Source of the DNA: Verrucomicrobiota bacterium
GTDB taxonomy: Bacteria; Verrucomicrobiota; Verrucomicrobiia; Verrucomicrobiales; DEV007
DNA length: 45,703 nt
Reading direction: 5' to 3'
NCBI GenBank assembly: GCA_020630975.1
Contig: JAHDID010000048.1
Location: 1 to 45,703 of the forward strand
In this document: in pieces, positions 9,832 to 22,591 of the stretch
Layout: each line of letters opens with the position of its first letter
Numbering within the stretch: the stretch's first letter is position 1
Translations under genes and position numbers: made by a program
Notes under the pieces: model-generated
Databases searched by the model: none
What the model was told of the DNA's origin: nothing
The model's input: the letters and a program-made list of their open reading frames with translations, nothing else

Positions 9832-10237
9832 CTATCGCGTCCCCGTTCGATCCATTGGCCCAGCGATGGATCGATTATCGAATGCTCGTTTATACTGACG
9901 CCAATAATCAGGTTCCACAATAATATCCTCACTACTAATACCATCAGGATCTCTACGCTCTAGCACAACGTTAAGTGAACGAGCAGCCATCTCAGCGGCA
10001 ACACCACCATGCTCTATGCACCGTAGCAAAACACCGAATCCCGCACGAGATCCATACGAAAGAGCTTCGACGGCTATCTTGTCTGCTGCTCCAATAAGTA
10101 ACATAGGATCTGGCGACTCCGATTGAACAATTTCAATCGCCTCACAAAGGTCGACTTTAGGAATAACACCTTCACTTTCCCGCTTTAATGCTTTAATGCT
10201 TTAATGCTCTCTTTCTTTTCCGAGAATGACGGCCCAT
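9832..10237 (-). pseudogene. Unknown gene broken by 8-bp repeat expansion
   Basis: An ORF reads backward from an ATG at 10237 (MGRHSRKRKRALK) but stops inside a tandem repeat of GCATTAAA. If two of the three 8-bp units are removed (16 nt), the frame continues without interruption to the stop at 9832, giving exactly 130 codons (129 residues). Otherwise only an internal Met at 10104 gives an open frame of 90 residues. The product has a basic N-terminus and a body with LLIGAADKIAVEAL and IIVEPDYWRQYKRAF; I recognise no family. It sits in a small island of unknown genes. It may be a decayed gene, or a contingency locus with a currently off allele. Confidence 0.6.
10184..10207. repeat. Three perfect 8-bp tandem units
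   Basis: TTTAATGC occurs three times head to tail (10184-10191, 10192-10199, 10200-10207). It interrupts the reading frame of the minus-strand ORF at 9832-10237. Unit length is not a multiple of three, so each gain or loss shifts the frame. Confidence 0.95.
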
Positions 10238-12728: not shown

Positions 12729-13496
12729 ATGCCTACATCCTTTTCACCATCTGTCTGCATCGATGCCGTTTTCGAAAATCAATCCAAGTCCGATGCCATC
12801 GCCGCAGTCGCTTCTGCCGGTATTTCTGCTTTCGAGTTTTGGGGATGGTGGGATAAAGACATGGATGAACTGCTCGCCGCCAAATCCAGCCACGGCATGG
12901 AGATCGCGGCCTGCTGCACCAAATTCATCAGCTTGGTCGATCCCGCCACTCGCGAAGACTATCTGGCGGGCCTCTCCGAATCGATCGAAGCCGCTCAAAA
13001 ACTAGGCACGAAGACTCTGATCTCTCAGGTCGGCGACTTTCGCCCTGGCGTGTCTCGCGAGGAGCAGCACCAGTGTCTGGTAGATGGCTTGAAAGAGGCT
13101 GCTTCCGCACTCGAGGCAGCCGACGTGACTCTAGTGATCGAGCCGCTCAATGAGCTAGTCGACCACGCAGGCTACTACCTGATCCGTAGCGATGAGGCAT
13201 TTGACATCATCGACGAGGTCGGCAGCTCTCATGTGAAGGTGGTCTACGACATCTATCACCAGCAGATCAGCGAGGGTCATTTGATCAAAAATATCGTGCC
13301 CAATATCGACAAAATCGGCCACTTCCACGCCGCAGGAAATCCCGGTCGCCACGAGCTGACTCGCGGCGAGATCCACTACCCCAGTGTGTTTCAGGCGATC
13401 CGCGAGACTGGCTACACCGGCTACGTGGGCCTCGAGTATTGGCCAGTGGACGATGCTGTCGCCGGGCTCAAAGAGGTCGGTGGCTGGTTCGCATAG
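12729..13496 (+). CDS. Hydroxypyruvate-isomerase-like TIM barrel protein
   Basis: This 255-residue cytoplasmic protein belongs to the xylose-isomerase-like TIM-barrel superfamily and is closest to hydroxypyruvate isomerase (Hyi). Landmarks are an N-terminal FSPSVCIDAVF, FEFWGWWDKD, VIEPLNE carrying a likely metal-binding Glu, VKVVYDIYHQQISEG carrying Asp and His ligands, and GHFHAAGNPGRHE with a final GLEYWP Glu. Hyi converts hydroxypyruvate to tartronate semialdehyde in glyoxylate metabolism, but related barrels act as sugar isomerases or epimerases, so the substrate is uncertain. No glyoxylate-pathway genes are adjacent. Confidence 0.85.
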   Translation: MPTSFSPSVCIDAVFENQSKSDAIAAVASAGISAFEFWGWWDKDMDELLAAKSSHGMEIAACCTKFISLVDPATREDYLAGLSESIEAAQKLGTKTLISQVGDFRPGVSREEQHQCLVDGLKEAASALEAADVTLVIEPLNELVDHAGYYLIRSDEAFDIIDEVGSSHVKVVYDIYHQQISEGHLIKNIVPNIDKIGHFHAAGNPGRHELTRGEIHYPSVFQAIRETGYTGYVGLEYWPVDDAVAGLKEVGGWFA

Positions 13497-13517: not shown

Positions 13518-14507
13518 CTAGCTGGCCTCCTCTAGGGGTGCCTCTTCTGCTGCTGTATCATCGAGCTGCTGCTGCAGCTTTTGCAGTAGCGACTGGTGCT
13601 CCACAGATGGCGTGTAGTCAGCTGCTTCAGGACGCGCTTCCACCTCAGGCTCGTCTTCCAGTTCGACTATAGGTGGCTTTTTCAGGATAATCGGCTCCGA
13701 CTCCGGCTCCAGCACAGATGGCGCAGCCTCTACGGTGGCAGGTGCTTCAGCAGGCTCTGGTTCAGGCTCCGCAGTGGCGACTTCCTCCACAGCAGCAGCA
13801 GCCTCTTCTGCCTGCACTAATGGCTCCGGTAGCGGCAGCGGCTCCACTTCTTCAGCTAGAGTATTCACGGATAGATCTTCATCCAGCGGTAGTTCGACTT
13901 CGACCGACGAGATGGGCTCATCCACCGGTAGGGCCTCGGGCTGCGGATCACTCAGACCCACTTGCGCGACCTCCGTGTCCTGATCCACCGCGTGGACGGA
14001 CTCAGAGATAGAAATTTCGATCGGTTCCTCCTCCACAGGCTCGGCATCTGCAGGTGCCTCTGCTTCCGCCACCCCTGCTTCGATGGTCTCATCTGGCACT
14101 TGCTCTGCAGCGATAGGTTCTACTACCTCTACGGCATCACAGCCCTCCATCTCTTGATTCGCGTCTTCTACTTGAGGAGGCTCCTCCACCGGCTCTGGAG
14201 CAGCGGCTGGGACGGCAGGCTCGTGTACTGCAGCGGGCGGACTGAGCGGTACAGTCATCTCTCCCTCGGCCTCGACAGGCAATTCAAACTCAATCGTCTG
14301 TGGCAAATTCACAGCTCCCGCGACCAACGTAGAAGAACTCGTCGCATTGACCGACAAAGGGCTCAAAGTCTTCTCCAGCTCTTGGATCAAAGAATCCAAT
14401 GAAGCCACCATCTGGCCATCCACCCCATCATCAATAGCCCGCTTCGCAGCTTCGATTCTAGCCTGAGCTTCGTCTCTTAGTGCCTTGAGTTGATTGAGGT
14501 GTTCCAT
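13518..14507 (-). CDS. Acidic, Pro/Glu/Ala-rich disordered protein
   Basis: This 329-residue protein has a helical N-terminus (1-50, MEHLNQLKALRDEAQARIEAAKRAI), then about 250 residues dominated by Glu, Ala, Pro and Val in PEPxEE-like stretches, and a short helical C-terminus with LLQKLQQQLDD. No signal peptide or membrane span is visible, so it is probably cytoplasmic and largely unstructured. It is transcribed away from the envelope module at 14,829 with 321 nt between the start codons, and could share its regulation. I cannot assign a function. The long open frame with sensible flanking helices supports a real gene. Confidence 0.7.
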   Translation of the reverse strand: MEHLNQLKALRDEAQARIEAAKRAIDDGVDGQMVASLDSLIQELEKTLSPLSVNATSSSTLVAGAVNLPQTIEFELPVEAEGEMTVPLSPPAAVHEPAVPAAAPEPVEEPPQVEDANQEMEGCDAVEVVEPIAAEQVPDETIEAGVAEAEAPADAEPVEEEPIEISISESVHAVDQDTEVAQVGLSDPQPEALPVDEPISSVEVELPLDEDLSVNTLAEEVEPLPLPEPLVQAEEAAAAVEEVATAEPEPEPAEAPATVEAAPSVLEPESEPIILKKPPIVELEDEPEVEARPEAADYTPSVEHQSLLQKLQQQLDDTAAEEAPLEEAS

Positions 14508-14774
14508 GCTGAGTCAAATTATCACTAATTTATACAGGCGCTAACTCGATTTATCGGTCTTGAGTCGAAAAATTTGGGGAGTTCTTCTACCTGGCAGTGA
14601 GTTTTAGGGATTGTTTTAAAATTCGCAGCTCCAGTCATTTCACCGCGAGTGGTGGTGTGGACATGCGTCCGAACACATAACGTCTACCCCCTAATCTGCG
14701 ATAGAGCGATTTTTCTCTTCTCAGACCACTACTCTTCAACTAATTACAGAAATGATTAAGATTTTAATATTTTC

Positions 14775-14803
14775 TTGAATTATAATAAAAAACAAATTAT
14801 TAT
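14775..14803 (+). promoter_or_regulatory. Candidate sigma-70-type promoter of envelope module
   Basis: TTGAAT (14775-14780) and TATTAT (14798-14803) are separated by exactly 17 nt in an A/T-rich setting, 25 nt ahead of the first module gene. The match to consensus boxes and ideal spacing make this the clearest promoter candidate in the window, although verrucomicrobial promoters are poorly characterised. Confidence 0.5.
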
Positions 14804-14805
14804 AG

Positions 14806-14820
14806 ATATTTAGGAAATAT
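14806..14820 (+). promoter_or_regulatory. Leader hairpin presenting an AGG in its loop
   Basis: ATATTT (14806-14811) pairs with AAATAT (14815-14820) around the loop AGG (14812-14814), just ahead of the ATG at 14829. AGG is the only Shine-Dalgarno-like element there. A comparable but larger palindrome precedes the second module copy. It could modulate translation or be chance in A/T-rich DNA. Confidence 0.35.
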
Positions 14821-14828
14821 TATATTTT

Positions 14829-16655
14829 ATGAAGTACCTCTCCGCCTGCGCGGTATTTTTTCTACTCGTCTTCTGTGGCGGCCTAGCTTCACGCGTGTTC
14901 TTTGAGCAAGTCGTGAAGAAAGACATGGCCGCCGACGGTCGTCGTCTGCTCTTGGATGCAGGCATCGACGATCCTGACGAGAGGTATGATCATATCTTTG
15001 TGTCTCTAGCCGGCTCGTACAACGCACTGACCAAAGGCCCAGTCACTCTGCATCACATCGATGGCAACGTATGGGGCATCACCAAGGCTGAACACATCAG
15101 CCATACCCAAACCACATTTGTGGCGTCTGTGAAGAGTGACGGCACAGTCAAACTCGAAGGCGAAGTACCCAATGCCGGTGTGAAAGCCGATCTCGTCCGC
15201 GCAGCCAAAAAAGCTGTCGGAGTCGCCAAAGTCGACAACCAGCTAGTTGTGAGCGAGCACGCTAGAGGTCCCAAGTGGGGCGAATCTGGTCCTGATTTTC
15301 TCGAAGAATTCCTATCCTTCTCTGGAGTCGAAAGTGTCTCAGCAGATGGCAGAGGTATCACTCTAGAAGGCGAAGTGAACTCCCGCGAAGTGCGTGAAAA
15401 GATCGGCGAATTGGCCGCCCAACTCACCAAAGCCCCAATGGTGGTCAATAACAACCTGACGGTGAAGAGCACCAAGCCACCAGTCCTCATCCTCAGAGGT
15501 GGCGAAAAAGGCCTCAGCCTATCCGGTCTGTTGCCCAGCGAGCAGGTCAAAAAAACCGTCCTTTCCCTCGTAGACGGCGCTCTCTCCGATGCTAACACAG
15601 CTGTAGATGCGGAGACGCTCATCGTCTCTTCTGGTGTCGCCGAGCCATGGTGGCTAGGCCATGCCGAGCAGCTCGTCCCAGCCTTTCTCAAAGAGACCGA
15701 TGGTATCGGCAATCTCGAGTATTGGAAAAATCACCTCCTGATCAGTGGCGAAGTCACCGATCCCAATGCTGTCACATCCATCACCACCCTGGCGAGCAGC
15801 AGCTCTGATATACCAGAGGGCTTCTCAGTGGAGAATGCTCTCAGCACCGTGCCCAGCGAAAATCCAAACATCGCTATCTACTGGGATAGCAATATGAGAC
15901 TGATCATCGAAGGCCAACTCGGGTCCGTCACTTTCAAAGACCAGATCCTCAGTGCACTGATCCGTAGCCAGCCCGACCTAATGGTAGCCGATCGACTGCG
16001 TGTGAAAGAAGAGGTCCGCAATATCGCATGGTCAAATCCGACCCGCCTCGTCACAGAGATCGTCGGTGAAGCCGCTGGCGGTATGGTACGACTTACCGAA
16101 AAAGGTATCGCCCTATCTGGCCAGGCCAGTACCCAAAAACAGATCGACTCCATCGAGGAGGCCGCCACTCTGCTAGTCGGAGATCACGGGGTAGTCGTCA
16201 ATCGGATCAAACTCAATGCCTCTGCGCGCCCGCTCCACCCGACCAGCCTATCATCGACTGCTACGTCAAAACCCATCAGAGCCAGCTTCTCCGTCGTCAG
16301 CACCTCTCAGTATGATGGGCACGACTTTCGTCAGACCGCTATCTATTTCAAATCCGGCAGCTCGCGCCTAGGTACCTCCGATCAGAGAACTATCGGCAAT
16401 ACCGCCTCACTAATCCGCAAGATGGATCCCAGCATCAAATTCGTCGTCGGCGCTTACAATGATAGCAAAGGCGATCCTGCATACACTCAGGAGATCAATG
16501 AGAAGCGTGCCACAGCCGTCCGCGATGAATTGATCAGATTAGGTGTCTCAGCCGACCGATTAGTAGTCAAACACTATGCGGTCGATACCAGCAAGACCAG
16601 CCCGGAGGACTACTGGAAGTGCCAGCGCGTCGAACTATCCGTCGTGCAAGGCTAA
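14829..16655 (+). CDS. BON-repeat/OmpA-family envelope protein (module copy 1)
   Basis: This 608-residue protein has an N-terminal hydrophobic anchor or signal (about 5-25). Residues about 95-462 form a run of up to six BON-like units, each showing a strand-turn pattern such as VKLEGEVPN, ITLEGEVNS, LSLSGLLPS, LLISGEVTD and IALSGQAST. A linker follows, then a C-terminal OmpA-like domain (about 500-605). The OmpA domain starts AIYFKSGSSRL and keeps Asp545 and Arg560, the residues expected to bind peptidoglycan diaminopimelate. A Pro-Trp-Trp sits at 273-275. The protein probably bridges membrane and cell wall. It heads a tandem of six genes and is paralogous to the gene at 19,482. Confidence 0.85.
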   Translation: MKYLSACAVFFLLVFCGGLASRVFFEQVVKKDMAADGRRLLLDAGIDDPDERYDHIFVSLAGSYNALTKGPVTLHHIDGNVWGITKAEHISHTQTTFVASVKSDGTVKLEGEVPNAGVKADLVRAAKKAVGVAKVDNQLVVSEHARGPKWGESGPDFLEEFLSFSGVESVSADGRGITLEGEVNSREVREKIGELAAQLTKAPMVVNNNLTVKSTKPPVLILRGGEKGLSLSGLLPSEQVKKTVLSLVDGALSDANTAVDAETLIVSSGVAEPWWLGHAEQLVPAFLKETDGIGNLEYWKNHLLISGEVTDPNAVTSITTLASSSSDIPEGFSVENALSTVPSENPNIAIYWDSNMRLIIEGQLGSVTFKDQILSALIRSQPDLMVADRLRVKEEVRNIAWSNPTRLVTEIVGEAAGGMVRLTEKGIALSGQASTQKQIDSIEEAATLLVGDHGVVVNRIKLNASARPLHPTSLSSTATSKPIRASFSVVSTSQYDGHDFRQTAIYFKSGSSRLGTSDQRTIGNTASLIRKMDPSIKFVVGAYNDSKGDPAYTQEINEKRATAVRDELIRLGVSADRLVVKHYAVDTSKTSPEDYWKCQRVELSVVQG

Positions 16656-16698
16656 TCCAATACCCCTCACCGAATACTAAAACCAAATACACCGAACC

Positions 16699-16959
16699 AT
16701 GACTCAATTAGGACCAATTCTAGCAGAAGCAGCCGAGTGGAATAGACCGCTCACATGTTTGCTATGTGGCGCCATCTTTTTCTTGGTTGGTTTTTTCGTA
16801 GGCTGGCTGATCTGCCGCCGGTGGAGCACTGAGATCGAACATCTCGAGCGCGAGAACCGCCGTCTCACACTGGCTAATGACAAGCGCGAACGTCATTTCA
16901 CCGAAAACCGAGACCTCGTCTCGGCTCTGCTAGACAAGGATTCACCCAAAGTTCGCTAA
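16699..16959 (+). CDS. Small single-span membrane protein (module copy 1)
   Basis: This 86-residue protein has one transmembrane helix (about 19-41, with the core IFFLVGFFVGWLIC), followed by a charged segment (RRWSTEIEHLERENRRLTLANDKRERH) that should form a short coiled coil. It lies 43 nt after the BON/OmpA gene and 24 nt before the long coiled-coil gene, so all three are probably one transcript. A protein of the same size, order and topology occupies the equivalent place in the second module copy. Function is unknown; assembly with its coiled-coil partner is an inference from order. Confidence 0.75.
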   Translation: MTQLGPILAEAAEWNRPLTCLLCGAIFFLVGFFVGWLICRRWSTEIEHLERENRRLTLANDKRERHFTENRDLVSALLDKDSPKVR

Positions 16960-16983
16960 AGGTAGATAAACCATTTATTCGCT

Positions 16984-19368
16984 ATGAGTTCTTTTCCATT
17001 ACTCGCTCAATTTTGGCTCTCCTGGGATACCTTTTGGTCCTGCCTATGGCCTATCGCGCTACTGGCTGGCACCGCTTTACTCTTGGGCCTATGGGGCGCC
17101 TTCCTCCTGTTTGGCAATCGCTTCCGCGTACTGCGTGAGGCCAGAGAGACCAATACCAGGCTCGTCAATCGGCTAAACAGCATCGTCGACGACCAGAATG
17201 TATTGGTAGAAAATCTCAACAACCGCTTCTCGGTAGAGCAGAAAAAGCTCAATCTCCAGATCGCCAATCGCGATAGTAAACTAAAAGATCTCACGACGCG
17301 TCTGGCGAAACATGAGGAAACAGCCGCCAACCACAAATCTGTAGTCGCCGGTAGAGATGCCAACATCAATAGCCTACAAGCCGACTTATCCGATAGGGAT
17401 AAACAAATCATCCTACTGAAGCGAAAGATCGATAACGAAGGGCACCTGCTCAAGCGTATCGCCCAGCTCGAAGCCCTGCTCAACGATCGGGAAAACGAAA
17501 TCGCTAACATGCACGGCGATCTCGAAGAGCACCGCCTGACGATCGGCACCCGCGACAAGCGCATCGAAGAGCTCCTCGCCAATCAAAACGATGGCACCGC
17601 CGACGCCCGCATCGCCGAGCTAGAGCCCGCACTCGCAGAACTAGAGGCGGCACTCGCCGGACGCGAGGACGATCTCAACGACGCCAAGGGTCTATACGAC
17701 GACCTCGAGAAAACATACAACGATCTCGAAAAAACACTCACCGAGCGCGACGAGGAACTCGAAGATGTCCGCAAGGAGCTCGAAGATATCCGCAAGCAGC
17801 GCGACGATCTCGACAAAGACCTCAACGAACTACTCGCCGAAAGAGAGAACGATAACAGCTCCGCTAACGACGAGAAAATCATCGAGCTGGAGAAAATCAT
17901 CGACGATCGCGATACCGAGCTACTATCCATCCGAGAGGGCCTCGAAGGCCGTATCCAAGAGCTGGAAAGTCTACTCGGCCAGCGCGAGAGCACCATCATC
18001 GCCCTACAGAGCGATCTGCAGGCCAATGACGGACTACACGATCAGCAGGCTCGCCTACGGGAGCTCGATCAGGAGATCGCCAATCTCAAAAACGATCTCT
18101 CCAGCCAGACAGGTCTACACGACCGTATCCACGAGCTAGAGGCTGCACTTCACAGCCGTGAAGAGGATCTGCAGAAGTTCCACGAACAAAATGCCGATCA
18201 TCACTCCGCTTTCCAAGACCTCGAGAGCAAACTCAACGAAGCCCAGCGCGAGCGCGACGAAGAGATCGAAAAACTCAGCGACTTGCTGCGCAATCGAGAT
18301 GAAGAGCTCAACTCTCTACATGGCCAATCCAGTGCCAACGACTCTCTACAGATCAAGGTAGGAGAACTCGAGTCTATGCTCGGCGAGCGCGACAGCGAAC
18401 TGGCAAATCTGAAAACAGCCTCTACCGAAGCCAGCCGCCGCATCGAAGAACTGGAGCAGCTGATCAAAGAGCGCGAAGAAAAAATCAAAAATCTCTACCA
18501 GGAGGCAGACTCCATCTCCAGCCAGCTACAGGAAAACAACCAATTCTCCGAGCAGATCCATGATCTGGAGTGGAGCCTAGGCGAAAAAGATGGCGAGATC
18601 GATGGGCTCAAGCACGAGAAAGATGGCTACGTCTCCAGAGTCCGCGAGCTCGAGTGGCTACTCGGTGAAAAGGATGGCGAGCTAGACTGCCTGCGCGAAG
18701 AGAAATCCTTACTCAATGAGAAAATCCATCTGCATGAGGAGATGAATGCTCAGATCGGTTACCTCGAGAGATCGATCCGCGAGAAAGAAGGCGAAGTGGA
18801 GCGCTGGTGGACCGAGTGCGAAGGCCTAAAGTCTCAGCTGACCTCTCGCGACACCGAGATCGACCACCTCCGCAGGGATGTCGAGATAACCAATGGCCTA
18901 GAATCAAAGATCGAAGAACTCGAGTGGCTACTCGGCGAGAAAGACACCGAACTGGAAAAACTCCGCCTAGAGCTACGCCCACGTCCGCAGCGACCACAGC
19001 GAGCACAATCCACCAGCCTCGAGACACGAGTCCGCGAGCTGGAGCTTCAGGTCTACGACCGCGATCGCGAGCTCATGTCGCTCAGGCAGCGCGAGCCCAA
19101 AGGAACTAGCGGCGGTAGCAGTCTACGCGTCATCGGTGTCGCCACCGAAAGCACTAGCGATATCCAGGCTCGCATCCGTGAGCTGGAGGCTATCCTCGAG
19201 CGCCGGACCAGCACTCACTACAAGTCCAGCTCCGATCGCCCAGATGAGTACCGCTTCACTCTGGAAGATGGATCCACCATCTACGTGAAGGGCAATGAAC
19301 TGATCGACTACGATGGCAAGACTCACGTCGCATCGGAGCTCTTTGAGTCCCTGCAGGACAACGACTAG
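16984..19368 (+). CDS. Membrane-anchored long coiled-coil protein (module copy 1)
   Basis: This 794-residue protein has one N-terminal membrane span (about 21-43), followed by roughly 650 residues of nearly continuous charged coiled coil. The coil contains degenerate repeats built on the pattern ELE..L..(R/K)(D/E).E(L/I). Towards the end the unit sharpens into LEWLLGEKDGEL, with copies at LEWSLGEKDGEI, LEWLLGEKDGEL and LEWLLGEKDTEL. A basic Pro/Arg linker (RPRPQRPQR) precedes a last coil and a small C-terminal domain (about 745-794) with YRFTLEDGSTIYVKGNELIDYDGK. It could span tens of nanometres as a scaffold. I cannot name a family. Confidence 0.8.
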   Translation: MSSFPLLAQFWLSWDTFWSCLWPIALLAGTALLLGLWGAFLLFGNRFRVLREARETNTRLVNRLNSIVDDQNVLVENLNNRFSVEQKKLNLQIANRDSKLKDLTTRLAKHEETAANHKSVVAGRDANINSLQADLSDRDKQIILLKRKIDNEGHLLKRIAQLEALLNDRENEIANMHGDLEEHRLTIGTRDKRIEELLANQNDGTADARIAELEPALAELEAALAGREDDLNDAKGLYDDLEKTYNDLEKTLTERDEELEDVRKELEDIRKQRDDLDKDLNELLAERENDNSSANDEKIIELEKIIDDRDTELLSIREGLEGRIQELESLLGQRESTIIALQSDLQANDGLHDQQARLRELDQEIANLKNDLSSQTGLHDRIHELEAALHSREEDLQKFHEQNADHHSAFQDLESKLNEAQRERDEEIEKLSDLLRNRDEELNSLHGQSSANDSLQIKVGELESMLGERDSELANLKTASTEASRRIEELEQLIKEREEKIKNLYQEADSISSQLQENNQFSEQIHDLEWSLGEKDGEIDGLKHEKDGYVSRVRELEWLLGEKDGELDCLREEKSLLNEKIHLHEEMNAQIGYLERSIREKEGEVERWWTECEGLKSQLTSRDTEIDHLRRDVEITNGLESKIEELEWLLGEKDTELEKLRLELRPRPQRPQRAQSTSLETRVRELELQVYDRDRELMSLRQREPKGTSGGSSLRVIGVATESTSDIQARIRELEAILERRTSTHYKSSSDRPDEYRFTLEDGSTIYVKGNELIDYDGKTHVASELFESLQDND

Positions 19369-19398
19369 CCCTCTCACCTGCCTTTAGGCAAAAAGTTC

Positions 19399-19416
19399 TT
19401 AAATTTTAAAATTTAA
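19399..19416. repeat. 18-bp perfect A/T palindrome
   Basis: TTAAATTTTAAAATTTAA is a perfect palindrome between the two module copies, 30 nt after the stop of the long coiled-coil gene. It could be an operator; it is not a typical terminator because it lacks GC pairs. Confidence 0.6.
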
Positions 19417-19454
19417 TCACTCTTATTATTCTTATCATATTTACCATTGCATAG

Positions 19455-19478
19455 TTCTGAATATCTATATATTCAGAA
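19455..19478 (+). promoter_or_regulatory. 10-bp inverted repeat directly before start codon
   Basis: TTCTGAATAT (19455-19464) and ATATTCAGAA (19469-19478) are a perfect 10-bp inverted repeat around a CTAT loop, ending 3 nt before the ATG at 19482. It covers the place where a ribosome binding site would lie, and no Shine-Dalgarno is visible. In RNA it would form a hairpin next to the start codon; in DNA it could be an operator. The first module copy has a smaller hairpin in a similar place. Confidence 0.6.
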
Positions 19479-19481
19479 ATT

Positions 19482-21227
19482 ATGAAAGGTATTGCTGTTA
19501 TCCTCTACTTCCTAGGGCTCTCCGCCCTAGGTGGATGCCTTTCGCAGAATTTTTACCAGGATTTCATCGAAAATGAGCTGGTAGGGCAGTCTCAGCGAGT
19601 GCTTTCAGAGGTCGGTCTAGATGAGATCAAAGTCGGCTTAGACGGCCATTTCCTCGACATTCCGGAAGACTCGATCGATAAAATGACCTATCGCCGCGTC
19701 GTCGAAGAGGTCGACGAGACCGTCCCCGGTATCTACACACCCAAGCTAGAGCCGATCCCCGAAGAAGCCGCCCATTGCCGGATCGAGGTGGGCAACACTC
19801 AGGTACTACTGATCGGGCAGCTCGATCGCGATACCGCTGGAAAGATGTCCCGCAAAGTGGCGAAACTCTTCCCTGAGCTAGAACTGCTCAACCACATCGC
19901 CACCAGCAGCCACTACGCAGGAGTCGATTGGACCGAGGATACCGACTCATTTCTAGAGACCTGCTTCACCACTCCCGGAGTCGATGTCTTGGAAACCAGT
20001 GAAGGCCTCTATGCTGTGGAAGGTTACTTCCCCGATCCCGCCGCCCTAGAGGCACTAAAGACAGCTGCAGCCGACCAGGATGCCCAATTTCAAGTGATGA
20101 CGCCGCGCAGCAGCGATTCTGCCAGCTATCCCGATGTCGCTACACTCACCATCCAGAGACAAGATGGTCGGATCAGTCTTTCAGGCAAGCTGCCCAACGA
20201 GATCATTCGAGACGAGATCGTCACCACAGCTCAGCTAGAGTTTGGCACCTTCGAGATCGACATGGAGATCGAAGTCTCCGACACTTGCAATGACCCTTGG
20301 TGGCGCCCCAATCTAGGCGACCTCCTCGATCGCTATGCCAGGCTGCTAGAGGGCGATGGCCAGATCGCCTACGGTGCCAAAGAGCTAACCATGTCTGGTA
20401 CGCTATCTGGTCCCGGATCAGCAGCTCAGCTAGAGGCCCTAGGTATGAAATCTCGCCCGCGTGGCTACTCCTTTCGCCCTGCTTTTGAGGCCGAGTCATC
20501 AGTAGAGCCCACGCTCACTCTCAATCGATCCGCCGATGAGCTAATCATCTCCGGACAGATCTGTCAGGACGATCACGACCTGATCATGAATCCCACCACT
20601 CTCCAGCAGATGAGCGCCGGCACCCTGCTAAACCAAGTGAAGATCTCGCCCACCACCAAAGCCTTTACCTGCAACAATCCAGGCCCACTACTCATCCTAC
20701 TTTCTAGCCGCCTAGAGAATAGCGAGATCCAGCTCGATCACGAAAAACTCATCATCAAAGGTACCGTCGCAGACGAAGTCCAGCGCGGTGCCTACACCAA
20801 ACTGGCCACTTCTGTCATCGGCCAATCCCACACTATCGAAAACCGTCTGACTATGCAGTCATTCATGCTGCAGTCAGAGACCGAGATGGTGAAGCAATTT
20901 AAAGAGCACTCCATCTATTTCAAAACCGGTAGTTCTCAGCTGAGTGCGGGTGACTTGGAGAAAGTAAACAAAATAGCCGACCTCATCAGACAATTTCCCA
21001 CCGATCAAAACTTCATCGTCGGCGGTTATGCCGATCAGCGTGGCAACCCAGAGGTAAACCGCCAACTCAGCGAAAAGCGCGCCAGCGCCGTGATGGTGGC
21101 ACTCGCAGAAGCAGGCGTTCCACTCATCAGAATGACTCAAAAAAGTTTCACCGAAGACGCATCCGGCTCCCTCATTGCCGATCTTTGGAAAAGTCGACGA
21201 GTCGAAATCTCTCTGGATAGCCTCTAG
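19482..21227 (+). CDS. BON-repeat/OmpA-family envelope protein (module copy 2)
   Basis: This 581-residue paralogue of the gene at 14,829 has an N-terminal hydrophobic segment ending LGGC, a possible lipobox with Cys19. The BON-like region is more divergent (recognisable units ISLSGKLPN, LTMSGTLSG, LIISGQICQ, LIIKGTVAD). The C-terminal OmpA-like domain (about 475-580) starts SIYFKTGSSQL and retains Asp518 and Arg533 in the expected peptidoglycan-binding positions. A Pro-Trp-Trp at 272-274 matches the position in copy 1. The protein would link the envelope to peptidoglycan; lipidation is uncertain because copy 1 lacks the Cys. Confidence 0.83.
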   Translation: MKGIAVILYFLGLSALGGCLSQNFYQDFIENELVGQSQRVLSEVGLDEIKVGLDGHFLDIPEDSIDKMTYRRVVEEVDETVPGIYTPKLEPIPEEAAHCRIEVGNTQVLLIGQLDRDTAGKMSRKVAKLFPELELLNHIATSSHYAGVDWTEDTDSFLETCFTTPGVDVLETSEGLYAVEGYFPDPAALEALKTAAADQDAQFQVMTPRSSDSASYPDVATLTIQRQDGRISLSGKLPNEIIRDEIVTTAQLEFGTFEIDMEIEVSDTCNDPWWRPNLGDLLDRYARLLEGDGQIAYGAKELTMSGTLSGPGSAAQLEALGMKSRPRGYSFRPAFEAESSVEPTLTLNRSADELIISGQICQDDHDLIMNPTTLQQMSAGTLLNQVKISPTTKAFTCNNPGPLLILLSSRLENSEIQLDHEKLIIKGTVADEVQRGAYTKLATSVIGQSHTIENRLTMQSFMLQSETEMVKQFKEHSIYFKTGSSQLSAGDLEKVNKIADLIRQFPTDQNFIVGGYADQRGNPEVNRQLSEKRASAVMVALAEAGVPLIRMTQKSFTEDASGSLIADLWKSRRVEISLDSL

Positions 21228-21254
21228 ACCTATTTTTTACACTTTCATACACTC

Positions 21255-21512
21255 ATGATCACACCTTTAGCACTAGCTTCTTTAGCTGCTGAAAATCAAT
21301 TCCTAGTCGGCTGTGTCGCTACAGCCCTTGCTGGTTTCGTGTTTTTCTGTGCTGGTATCTTTGTCGGATTTCTGTGTTTCAACGGCCGTGCCCGATTGGC
21401 CGAGGAACTCGAAAAAGGCAACCGCGACCAATCTCAAGTCAATCACCGAACCTGGCGCCAGACCAAGCTTACCAAAGCTAAACTGGAAGAAGTCATAGCC
21501 ACTCACGGCTAA
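21255..21512 (+). CDS. Small single-span membrane protein (module copy 2)
   Basis: This 85-residue protein has one membrane helix (about 17-42, core FVFFCAGIFVGFLCF) and a charged C-terminal tail. It is the positional and topological counterpart of the 86-residue protein at 16,699, and the two share an FF-x2-G-x-FVG-like core. It lies 27 nt after the second BON/OmpA gene and 23 nt before the next coiled-coil gene, so co-transcription is likely. Function is unknown. Confidence 0.75.
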   Translation: MITPLALASLAAENQFLVGCVATALAGFVFFCAGIFVGFLCFNGRARLAEELEKGNRDQSQVNHRTWRQTKLTKAKLEEVIATHG

Positions 21513-21535
21513 CCACAACCCAAACCCACCACACC

Positions 21536-22591
21536 ATGGAAAACATGGACCTCATCTACTACCAACTAGCGCAGACCTACACTGTAGCAGAGCACGCAGA
21601 GAAAGTAGGCTACGTACTGAAACTGCTACTCCCAGTCAGCGCCCTCATGTGCGGATTTTTCGCACTGGGCCTATGGGCATCGCACCTATACTTGTCCAAA
21701 TACCTGACTCGTATCAGCAATGCTCACGCTCGCAAAGCGACGAGCGGTCGGGGATTCCGACAGACCGTCGATGAGCAAAACAAACTCGGCCTAGAAGTCG
21801 TCAGAGCATTCGACAAACTGGTAAAGAAACTGCAGCGCCGAGAGCAACACGTCATCCAGCTGCACCGTAGGCTAGCCCAAGCCTCGACCAAAGATGAGGA
21901 TGAAGATCTACTCAATAGTATCAATCTAGACGATCTGGACGGCACACACCTCGAGATCGTCGGCGAGGTCGACGACCGCGATGTGCAGATCGAAGATCTC
22001 AGCCAGCAAGTGCGCACCCTGCAGCAGGCAAACGATCGCGCCAAGCGAGAGATCGAAGCCCTGCAGAGCCAGACCCCAGAGATAGAGCTCGACGACGAGC
22101 AGCCGACTATCGAGTTCAGCCTAGCCTCTCTGGAGCTTTCAGAGGAGAACGAAAACCTCAGACTACAGGTGGAATCCAAAAACAAGGAAATCGCCAATCT
22201 GCACAAGCGCTACGCCTTGCTCCAAAAGAAGGTGCTCAATTTAGAGGAAGCTGCTGCCAAGCATGCCCCGGAAGTCGAGGAGAACAAGATTGTCCCTATA
22301 TCAGCCTTTTCAGGAGAGAACGTAAAGACACACCACCAGTTTGGTGTGATCTATACCGACCAGCCAGCCCAAGTCGATGATCTCAAAAAGATCAAGGGAG
22401 TCGGCAAGGTACTAGAGAAAGCTCTCAATAAATTTGGTGTGTATCGATTCAAACAGATCGCTCTCTGGGAACAGACTGTGATCGATGAATTTGCCGCCAT
22501 CCTCCCCTTCGGAGAGCGAGTCATCCGTGACCGCTGGACCGATCAATCACGAGACCTCCACGAGCACAAATACGGCGAAAAGGTTAGCTAA
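21536..22591 (+). CDS. Membrane-anchored coiled-coil protein with helix-hairpin-helix end
   Basis: This 351-residue protein is the third gene of module copy 2. It has one membrane span (about 25-53), coiled coil (about 75-240, with an acidic DEDEDLL patch near 120), and a C-terminal domain (about 278-335) beginning DDLKKIKGVGKVLEKALNKFGV. That domain fits the helix-hairpin-helix type of COG3743, labelled predicted flap-endonuclease-1-like 5' DNA nuclease. Such domains bind DNA or act as small protein-interaction folds; no separate nuclease active site is visible. Compared with copy 1 the coil is much shorter. Its stop is 2 nt from that of the convergent photolyase gene. Confidence 0.83.
   Translation: MENMDLIYYQLAQTYTVAEHAEKVGYVLKLLLPVSALMCGFFALGLWASHLYLSKYLTRISNAHARKATSGRGFRQTVDEQNKLGLEVVRAFDKLVKKLQRREQHVIQLHRRLAQASTKDEDEDLLNSINLDDLDGTHLEIVGEVDDRDVQIEDLSQQVRTLQQANDRAKREIEALQSQTPEIELDDEQPTIEFSLASLELSEENENLRLQVESKNKEIANLHKRYALLQKKVLNLEEAAAKHAPEVEENKIVPISAFSGENVKTHHQFGVIYTDQPAQVDDLKKIKGVGKVLEKALNKFGVYRFKQIALWEQTVIDEFAAILPFGERVIRDRWTDQSRDLHEHKYGEKVS

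Follow-up and report, generated by a model that had tools for sequence, protein, structure and literature searches.

In mycobacteria, two genes for small membrane proteins, ArfB and ArfC, lie directly behind the gene for ArfA. MotB and PRK09039-type proteins are anchored in the inner membrane and place their OmpA end in the periplasm. The domain order of Rv0899/ArfA is a membrane anchor, one BON-type central domain, and OmpA (PMC6151718). A BON + BON + OmpA architecture is known from several phyla and is listed as cluster 7 in Table 1 of a second source (PMC7806268). The BON, OmpA, coiled-coil, and helix-hairpin-helix parts considered below are already known individually. To our knowledge, the set of three genes that joins them (A-B-C) has not been described; a narrow full-text literature search found no paper on such a gene set, although one may still exist.

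Two back-to-back three-gene sets

The window (the whole stretch of DNA analyzed here, 45,703 nucleotides from a Verrucomicrobiota bacterium) had been annotated in a first pass as holding six consecutive plus-strand genes in two copies of the same order. All six open reading frames (ORFs) were present, and the ORF list gave two back-to-back sets, A1-B1-C1 and then A2-B2-C2, at positions 14829 to 22591. A1 (14829 to 16655; 608 amino acids [aa]) is a single-span protein with ~7 BON-like units and a C-terminal OmpA domain, B1 (16699 to 16959; 86 aa) crosses the membrane once and has a short juxtamembrane tail, and C1 (16984 to 19368; 794 aa) has an N-terminal span and then a long coiled coil, with no C-terminal domain recognized. 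In the second set, A2 (19482 to 21227; 581 aa) is a paralogue of A1 by BLASTP against A1, OmpA profile, and tree, B2 (21255 to 21512; 85 aa) is again single-span, and C2 (21536 to 22591; 351 aa) has an N-terminal span, a weaker coiled coil, and a helix-hairpin-helix domain at its C terminus.

Upstream lies a divergent gene, E (13518 to 14507, minus strand), with a conserved N-terminal stretch of ~52 aa and an acidic Pro/Glu-rich tail. The first pass had overlooked both E and the helix-hairpin-helix domain of C2. E shares 63% identity over 52 aa (E value, 7.6e-17) with L116 6954-8561, and its N terminus is also common to proteins of L113 and L192. In relatives, E was found beside an A1-type set or downstream of a B-C-D set, D being a fourth protein. 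The stretch separating E and A1 (14508 to 14828) is a possible control region and holds one sigma-70-like match (14775 to 14803, plus strand); such matches were not above chance in the scanned region (5 versus a shuffle mean of 5.5). Terminator-like matches in the same scan numbered 13 versus 8.8 in shuffles, nearly all on the minus strand.

Conserved residues and domains of the A proteins

Gene order, homology, domains, residue conservation, and duplication were all established computationally. Both A proteins scored above the cut-off of the OmpA profile (PF00691; A1, 40.2 bits; A2, 44.5 bits; cut-off, 27.2). Against the BON profile (PF04972; cut-off, 27), A1 scored 63.5 bits over three stretches; A2 scored 16.1 bits, under the cut-off, yet is alignable to A1 end to end. 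The AlphaFold2 (AF2) model of A1 (mean pLDDT, 80) has a helix at residues 2 to 43, BON-like units within residues 50 to 462, and the OmpA domain at residues 500 to 605, and the figure of ~7 units is our own count from the strand/helix string of this model.

Both OmpA-like ends had been noted to hold an Asp and an Arg, and family alignments agree. Asp545 and Arg560 of A1 were invariant across 21 aligned proteins, and in the A2 family alignment (n = 17) Arg533 was invariant and Asp518 at least 90% conserved. A pattern for the OmpA motif recognized 30 of the 35 A rows and 20 of the 37 C rows, and counts were restricted to these; the wall-binding Asp was retained in 29 of the 30 matched A rows, and window A1 is one of the unmatched rows, its Asp being visible in the 21-protein alignment. 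The Pro-Trp-Trp noted in the BON-like regions is present in A1 and A2, but across the family just its final Trp is (nearly) invariant. Membrane attachment of A2 as a lipoprotein, through a Leu-Gly-Gly-Cys lipobox-like stretch, was set aside because its counterpart in L182 has Val where A2 has Cys.

A duplication that is not recent

A1 and A2 are the closest paralogues of each other within the window genome. They aligned by BLASTP over their full length (23% identity; E value, 3e-43), with mutual scores of 133 to 134 bits versus 27.5 bits (A1 query) and 38.2 bits (A2 query) for the next A-like matches in the genome, which contradicts the possibility that they are no closer to each other than to other OmpA proteins. 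B1 and B2 shared 35% identity over 55 aa (E value, 1e-6), and the likeness of C1 and C2 was confined to the span and the stretch directly behind it (26% over 89 columns; E value, 0.004). The module is thus duplicated, as had been proposed. We reject a recent tandem duplication, since identity between A1 and A2 is only 23% and the tree gives a separate counterpart of each in genome G131. The order of duplication events in the tree is tentative because the join of window A2 with L182 connects long branches, which the program flagged. Two copies in genome G123 paired in the tree (support, 100/99), and their C proteins resemble C1 and C2; gene conversion, or a duplication separate from that in the window genome, may lie behind this pairing. 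Among 33 genus genomes, the tandem arrangement is unique to the window genome, and two others carry both module types at separate places. The gene pairs that suggest synteny between L182 and other window genes may be multi-copy, and this synteny was set aside.

Gene order and spread

The A-B-C order is a conserved unit in the genus. Full-length A was recovered from 30 of the 33 genus genomes (not found in G073, G116, and G126), and A was followed by B and then C in all 29 with downstream DNA present; G125, with A at a contig end, was left out of this count. Recurrence of the three-gene order outside the window, put forward in the first-pass annotation as a check, was therefore seen in every testable genus genome. 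The genus A proteins are ~20% identical to the window A proteins, and the order is nonetheless kept. The same order turned up in other family genera and at additional loci within one genome. The 37 modules compared are a hand-picked selection, with a single locus for each genome place, and do not cover all loci. B was missed by ORF calling in several loci and was checked by hand, and the C region of L188 (G124) is split over two frames. In nine congeners, the module adjoins PNPase (named by Pfam); no module lies beside PNPase (G000:C137) in the window genome.

Phylum-wide spread was rejected. Among 194 Verrucomicrobiota genomes, a draw that can include few or no other members of the window genome's family, five had a match at an E value of ≤1e-20, and the match extended beyond the OmpA part, to a full-length A, in the window genome alone. 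Full-length A is common in that family (f1), and among the matches listed in two order searches, those outside f1 fell within or near the OmpA part only, from residue ~417 onward. The module thus appears to be concentrated in one family, and the earlier label of a verrucomicrobial wall-membrane scaffold is partly supported: there is a recurring wall-membrane module, common in f1, but it is not general to Verrucomicrobiota. Two loci, L113 and L192, have B-C-D sets without A (the L113 contig stops 0.5 kb before B), and A-like genes without B or C occur in two other genera (L083, L090, L210, and L212), so A, B, and C are not obligate partners.

C proteins and their differing ends

The third proteins had been described as an N-terminal span plus coiled coil. 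By our own simple measure of heptad signal over 28-residue windows, this is strong in C1 (61% of windows versus 9% [maximum, 17%] in 20 shuffles) but weaker in C2 (29% versus 9% [maximum, 25%]). Against the crescentin (intermediate-filament-like) profile Pfam Rod_CreS, C1 scored 18.4 bits, below the cut-off of 100. Among modules, C or the repeat partner ranges from 178 to 2867 aa. The canonical C order in relatives is span, coiled coil, and OmpA (54.9 bits for the OmpA domain of L076 C), and in this OmpA-like end Gly replaces the wall-binding Asp in 18 of 19; L185 retains Asp. The L192 C protein has Glu at this position.

The helix-hairpin-helix part of C2 (residues 262 to 351; 22319 to 22588, plus strand) is of the NuoE/L21/phasin C-terminal type. 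C2 matched NCBIfam PRK12373 partially (64.7 bits, residues 172 to 345, below the whole-protein cut-off of 514) and had Protein Data Bank (PDB) matches with E values of 7.5e-10 and 8.2e-9. Its nearest solved relatives are membrane-complex subunits: a 41 kD subunit of complex I and the O chain of a reaction centre. Scores against Pfam HHH (14.1 bits; cut-off, 24) and IMS_HHH (17.4 bits; cut-off, 24.4) were both under the cut-off. The Gly-Val-Gly hairpin is intact in C2, and the second Gly is absent in 36 of 60 related units; by our own pattern, C proteins carry 1 to ~17 such units, with ~17 in L092 (genome G011). DNA binding by this domain is a putative role. The AF2 model of C2 was poor (mean pLDDT, 49) and was not used.

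Membrane segments and predicted topology

Profile comparisons show that B, the start of C, and D form one membrane family, new here, with hhalign probabilities for the shared membrane segment of 96.8 (B-C), 98.0 (B-D), and 95.7 (C-D). The B profile gave 82 matches at an E value of ≤1e-3 among 1063 ORF N termini (365 with a predicted span) from fetched loci rather than whole genomes, including the profile-building proteins, and all 82 were B, C, or D by place. Window C1 and C2 were not among these matches, and the B/C kinship holds at the level of the family. L183_B was left out of the profile; the better L093 B is 10025-10225, and the wrong-frame L093_B row was left out of the profile and the charge counts. 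The FF-x2-G-x-FVG core noted in the small proteins of 85 to 86 aa was found in both B1 and B2.

The positive-inside rule links flanking charge to membrane orientation. With 10-residue flanks, A was more positive before its helix in 27 of 33 rows (5 ties, 1 opposite; two of 35 rows with a span score under 1.4 were dropped), whereas the positive side lay after the helix in 29 of 32 B (3 ties), 34 of 37 C (2 ties, 1 opposite), and 17 of 18 D (1 tie) proteins. These charges favor a predicted placement of A's long part outside and the long parts of B, C, and D inside. With flanks of 15 and 20 residues, C favored inside in 27 and 21 of 37, with 6 opposite each, and D in 11 and 10 of 18. K/R count alone was higher on the far side in A as well (28 of 35) and so does not separate A from B, C, and D. 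Since window B1, B2, and C2 tie on 10-residue flank charge, the topology of the window proteins leans on the family.

A candidate wall-to-cytoplasm linker

The probable role of the module is to link the cell wall with something in the cell interior. From the data above, we infer a membrane topology, a physical complex, wall binding, and a cytoplasmic partner for A-B-C, and give an even chance to a trans-envelope scaffold in which wall-anchored periplasmic A is coupled via small helices to a cytoplasmic coiled coil. In such a scaffold, the N-terminal helix of A would fix the protein in the inner membrane, with the N terminus inside; its BON-like string would span the periplasm to the peptidoglycan, and its OmpA domain would grip the wall with Asp and Arg. 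B, and likewise D in sets that have it, would be a minimal partner, one glycine-rich helix with its N terminus outside and a short cytoplasmic tail. C would carry a B-related helix that leads, on the cytoplasmic side, to a long coiled coil or repeat region and an exchangeable end: helix-hairpin-helix units, an Asp-less OmpA-like fold, or, as in C1, no recognized domain. By packing against one another within the membrane, the A, B, and C helices would connect the wall with a scaffold or cargo in the cytoplasm. After duplication, the C copies would have diverged (C1 a plain coiled coil, C2 with helix-hairpin-helix), as if for different cytoplasmic partners.

It is also conceivable, though somewhat unlikely, that C is periplasmic in the manner of MotB or PRK09039, its OmpA end reaching the wall and being lost or exchanged in window C1 and C2, so that A and C together brace the inner membrane, the wall, and perhaps the outer membrane. 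OmpA domains are normally periplasmic, and the canonical C order, the retained Asp of L185, and the fading of C's charge signal with longer flanks would all be in keeping with this. However, with 10-residue flanks the charge pattern is opposite to that of A in 34 of 37 C proteins, the wall-binding Asp is lost in 18 of 19, and related C proteins end in helix-hairpin-helix units, found elsewhere in cytoplasmic proteins: NuoE, L21, and phasin proteins, the bearers of the C2-type domain, are cytoplasmic or cytoplasm-facing. C's Asp-less OmpA-like end and the C2 helix-hairpin-helix end are in line with an inside placement. Given that flanking charges favor a cytoplasmic coiled coil, recruitment of cytoplasmic partners, a role suggested earlier for it, fits better than that of a spacer in the periplasm.

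An ArfABC-like channel or export system, in which oligomeric BON rings of A form or gate a pore with B as accessory membrane protein and C as regulator, is very unlikely. The resemblance of A to mycobacterial ArfA, already remarked upon, is supported: the first Foldseek match of A1 was 2l26 (Rv0899/ArfA; E value, 6.6e-9), and VIA-align placed 2kgs at a Z of 13.7 (123 residues; rmsd, 6.1), although its matches were mostly OmpA chains and other BON folds remain compatible. The cut-off of 81 bits for NCBIfam NF051434 (ArfA_OmpATb_N) was passed by A1 (83.1), L116 A (86.8), and L184 A (98.4) but not by A2 (40.9), L076 A (61.8), or L131 A (54.9). The two small genes behind ArfA and a weak YscD-type BON-like match in A2 (18.7 bits; cut-off, 24.3) also point toward a channel. 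Against it, B1 and B2 had no informative NCBIfam match and six other B/D proteins none at an E value of ≤0.01 (in a collection that may or may not include ArfB/ArfC models), A has ~7 BON-like units versus one BON-type domain in ArfA (PMC6151718), and nothing ArfA-like accounts for the coiled-coil or repeat partner, with its 178 to 2867 aa. That A, B, and C are independent envelope genes whose proximity reflects chance or shared regulation, with no complex formed, is highly improbable: the existence of B-C-D sets lacking A, and of A genes lacking B/C, is compatible with it, but the order is intact in 29 of 29 testable genus genomes despite ~20% A identity and appears again in other genera of the family and elsewhere in the same genome.

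If the wall-to-cytoplasm topology is true, the module would be a dedicated linker for which nature offers a series of exchangeable ends in the cytoplasm, and an OmpA fold would have shifted to the cell inside after loss of its wall-binding residue. LINC complexes are nuclear-envelope assemblies, and a bacterial counterpart in working principle—wall-gripping A, small helices, and very long cytoplasmic coiled coils or helix-hairpin-helix arrays holding the nucleoid or another cytoplasmic structure to the envelope, each cell having several paralogous sets, two of them in tandem in the window—is quite unlikely.

Comparison with known systems

The closest described arrangement is ArfABC of Mycobacterium tuberculosis. 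As in ArfABC, a small membrane-protein gene lies downstream of A; unlike in ArfABC, with its successive ArfB and ArfC genes, A is followed by one small protein and a long coiled-coil/repeat protein, and in another phylum. A1 shares with ArfA/OmpATb the N-terminal anchor, BON-type domain, and C-terminal OmpA domain but differs in its string of ~7 units, where ArfA has one BON-type central domain (PMC6151718). Cluster 7 proteins also combine BON units with a C-terminal OmpA domain, but that table lists single proteins, and B-C partners and a seven-unit string are absent there (PMC7806268). With the Pal/OmpA C-terminal domain (PF00691), A1 and A2 share above-cut-off scores and the Asp and Arg; A differs in its BON string and N-terminal helix, and the C proteins of relatives bear a second, mostly Asp-less copy. 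C2 (residues 172 to 345, PRK12373 match) resembles the C-terminal helix-hairpin-helix of NuoE/L21/phasin PhaH, but here the bearer of the domain is a coiled coil with a membrane anchor, next to A and B. Finally, canonical C resembles MotB/PRK09039-type proteins in its span, helical stretch, and OmpA domain but differs in a charge pattern opposite to that of a periplasmic protein and in an Asp that is mostly lost.

Organization and recurrence of the gene sets

Two tandem plus-strand sets, A1-B1-C1 and A2-B2-C2, occupy positions 14829 to 22591 of the window, with all six ORFs present as described in the first-pass annotation. Each set encodes a single-span BON-like/OmpA protein (A), a small single-span protein (B), and a third protein (C) in which an N-terminal span precedes coiled coil or repeats; genes are 23 to 43 bp apart within sets, and 113 bp separate C1 from A2. 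The likeness noted between A1 and A2 extends over a full-length alignment (23% identity; E = 3e-43), and a search of the whole window genome (7.14 Mb, 158 contigs) upheld them as mutually closest, at 133 to 134 bits versus 27.5 (A1) and 38.2 (A2) bits for the next A-like matches. B1 and B2 matched at 35% across 55 residues, and similarity between C1 and C2 is confined to the span and the stretch just behind it. The core observation of a duplicated three-gene module is right.

Full-length A, defined as one match covering at least 493 of 611 profile positions, was found in 30 of the 33 genomes of the genus. DNA around A was fetched for all 30, and one genome was excluded from the order count because its contig stops inside A. 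The proposal that the three-gene order recurs was strongly borne out, with A followed by B and then C in 29 of the 29 remaining genomes. In these, B is a single-span protein of ~74 to 111 aa as called (identified by eye at loci where ORF calling missed it), and C has an N-terminal span plus a long helical region, split over two frames in G124. The commonest set consists of A (~612 aa), B (~79 aa), C (927 to 1484 aa where complete, with an OmpA-like domain at its end), and usually a fourth small protein, D (one span, 80 to 116 aa; 270 aa in locus L185, at a contig end). This form adjoins PNPase in nine genomes.

Sets with C2-like ends were found in other genera of the family (L082, L085, L092, L093, and L095). 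The window genome carries further sets on contigs C17 (A, 1024 aa; B, 70 aa; C, 1705 aa) and C40 (792, 63, and 422 aa), as well as B-C-D without A on contig C121. At four loci from two other genera of the family (L083, L090, L210, and L212), a polytopic membrane protein of ~395 aa follows the A-like gene and replaces B and C. Long A-like proteins of 900 and 799 aa at L125 (7633 to 15007) and L126 (7963 to 14894) share a different downstream neighborhood, with genes of ~115 to 119, 520, 116, and 714 aa in both. At L147 (421 to 2683; genome G114), the gene immediately behind an A-like gene (479 aa) encodes a 258-aa protein with a span plus coiled coil, which matches the B profile; no distinct B gene was called there.

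At E ≤ 1e-12, the A profile matched 62 of the 74 family genomes, some through the OmpA part alone. Among 194 genomes across the phylum, the window's own genome was the only one whose match at E ≤ 1e-20 reached past the OmpA part. A-B-C2 sets also occur in two MAGs labeled Akkermansiaceae by NCBI (L128 and L131); this label is no proof of a second family, since L124 and L132, matched to genus members G031 and G054, carry it too.

Duplication history and flanking genes

In a tree of 44 A proteins, A1 paired with L116 (100/99) and A2 with L182 (98/90), and the four were united (96/84), with the branches of A2 and L182 being long and flagged by the tree program. Two noncanonical A proteins of genome G123 joined next (six rows, 100/99). 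L116 (JARGOZ010000041) and L182 belong to one genome, a Verrucomicrobiales MAG (G112/G131), where they lie on different contigs surrounded by other genes. Since the tree and these separate loci place each type in both genomes, the A1 and A2 types were probably distinct before the window genome and this MAG split. In G123, too, each type has a contig of its own and other genes precede A; adjacency of the two was seen in the window only.

Gene E (13518 to 14507) is on the minus strand, divergent from A1. Over the N-terminal 52 residues it has 63% identity with the L116 counterpart, which likewise diverges from its A1-type gene, and this N terminus is common to genes behind the B-C-D sets of L113 (8860 to 10410) and L192 (5583 to 6899). 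The L113 gene has an OmpA-like domain at its end (32.1 bits), and the L192 gene seems similar. A xylose-isomerase-like TIM barrel gene (12729 to 13496; 146.5 bits) adjoins E, and another adjoins D at L076 at least (101.3 bits), which may be coincidence.

Membrane family and predicted topology

Profiles of B, the C N terminus, and D match mutually (hhalign, 96.8, 98.0, and 95.7), and on this profile evidence the three are one membrane family. What they have in common is a helix rich in glycine, closed by Trp and basic residues and followed by a short helical tail. When the B profile was run on 1063 ORF N termini from the loci retrieved, 365 of which had a predicted span, it had 82 matches at E ≤ 1e-3, all of them B, C, or D by position; C1 and C2 of the window were absent from these.

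Membrane helices can be oriented by the positive-inside rule. When 10 residues on each side were counted, plus the N-terminal amine, charge was more positive before the helix in 27 of 33 A proteins (5 ties, 1 opposite) and after it in 29 of 32 B (3 ties), 34 of 37 C (2 ties, 1 opposite), and 17 of 18 D proteins (1 tie). That rule predicts an outside location for the long part of A and an inside one for the tails of B, C, and D; B1, B2, and C2 are among the ties, so their predicted orientation leans on the family. The main rival reading places C in the periplasm instead of the cytoplasm. With 15- and 20-residue flanks, inside-favoring counts drop to 27/37 and 21/37 for C and to 11/18 and 10/18 for D, with B steady at 27/32 and A, in its opposite direction, at 29/33; counting K/R alone fails to set A apart from B, C, and D. 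Of 19 canonical C proteins (span, coiled coil, OmpA-like end), 18 have Gly at the position of the wall-binding Asp in their OmpA-like end, and L185 has Asp; of 43 C proteins examined, 16 have, by our own pattern, helix-hairpin-helix units. Both features agree with an inside C. The best reading is a putative wall-anchored scaffold, coupled at the inner membrane, whose coiled coil would lie in the cytoplasm.

Variable ends of C

C2 resembles NuoE, L21, and phasin PhaH proteins in their C-terminal parts and also matches two solved membrane-complex subunits. By pattern, helix-hairpin-helix units number three in the G123 C protein (L184) and two in L131; Pfam lists such families in L088 and L092. 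C2 retains Gly-Val-Gly, and a nucleic-acid role for it is possible; the second Gly is missing in 36 of 60 units, which makes such a role doubtful in many relatives. The domain was also found in family proteins outside the A-B-C sets read.

The C proteins of L092 (1750 to 10353; 2867 aa) and L093 (10235 to 18652; 2805 aa), adjoining A and B, have ~17 and ~16 units by our pattern behind a single N-terminal span. Elsewhere in the window genome, a 1200-aa open frame on contig C24 (53100 to 55358) has several helix-hairpin-helix matches. The 1705-aa C protein of contig C17 (L088, 3350 to 8467) has an end resembling a von Willebrand A domain by its motif, a domain that Pfam did not list for it at E ≤ 0.01; its relative at L187 has a similar end. 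On contig C40, a C-like protein (L089, 4474 to 5742) combines a helix-hairpin-helix-like stretch with an OmpA domain (43.9 bits), apparently with Gln at the Asp position as read by eye.

Comparison of A with known proteins

AF2 modeled A1 (from 21 sequences; mean pLDDT, 80; pTM, 0.39) with a single N-terminal helix (residues 2 to 43), a BON-like region (50 to 462), and an OmpA domain (500 to 605). The BON-like region repeats a strand-strand-helix-strand unit, ~seven times by our count, with an unreliable mutual arrangement of the units; Pfam lists three BON stretches. The wall-binding Asp and Arg are retained in A; according to one study, OmpA is bound to peptidoglycan via two such residues, one an Asp (PMC6572160). 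In VIA-align, A1 reached Z scores of up to 16.4 with OmpA domains and 13.7 with the OmpATb BON-type domain 2kgs (123 residues; rmsd, 6.1). A1 scores above the NCBIfam ArfA cutoff and A2 below it, and the top Foldseek match of the A1 model is Rv0899/ArfA (2l26; E = 6.6e-9).
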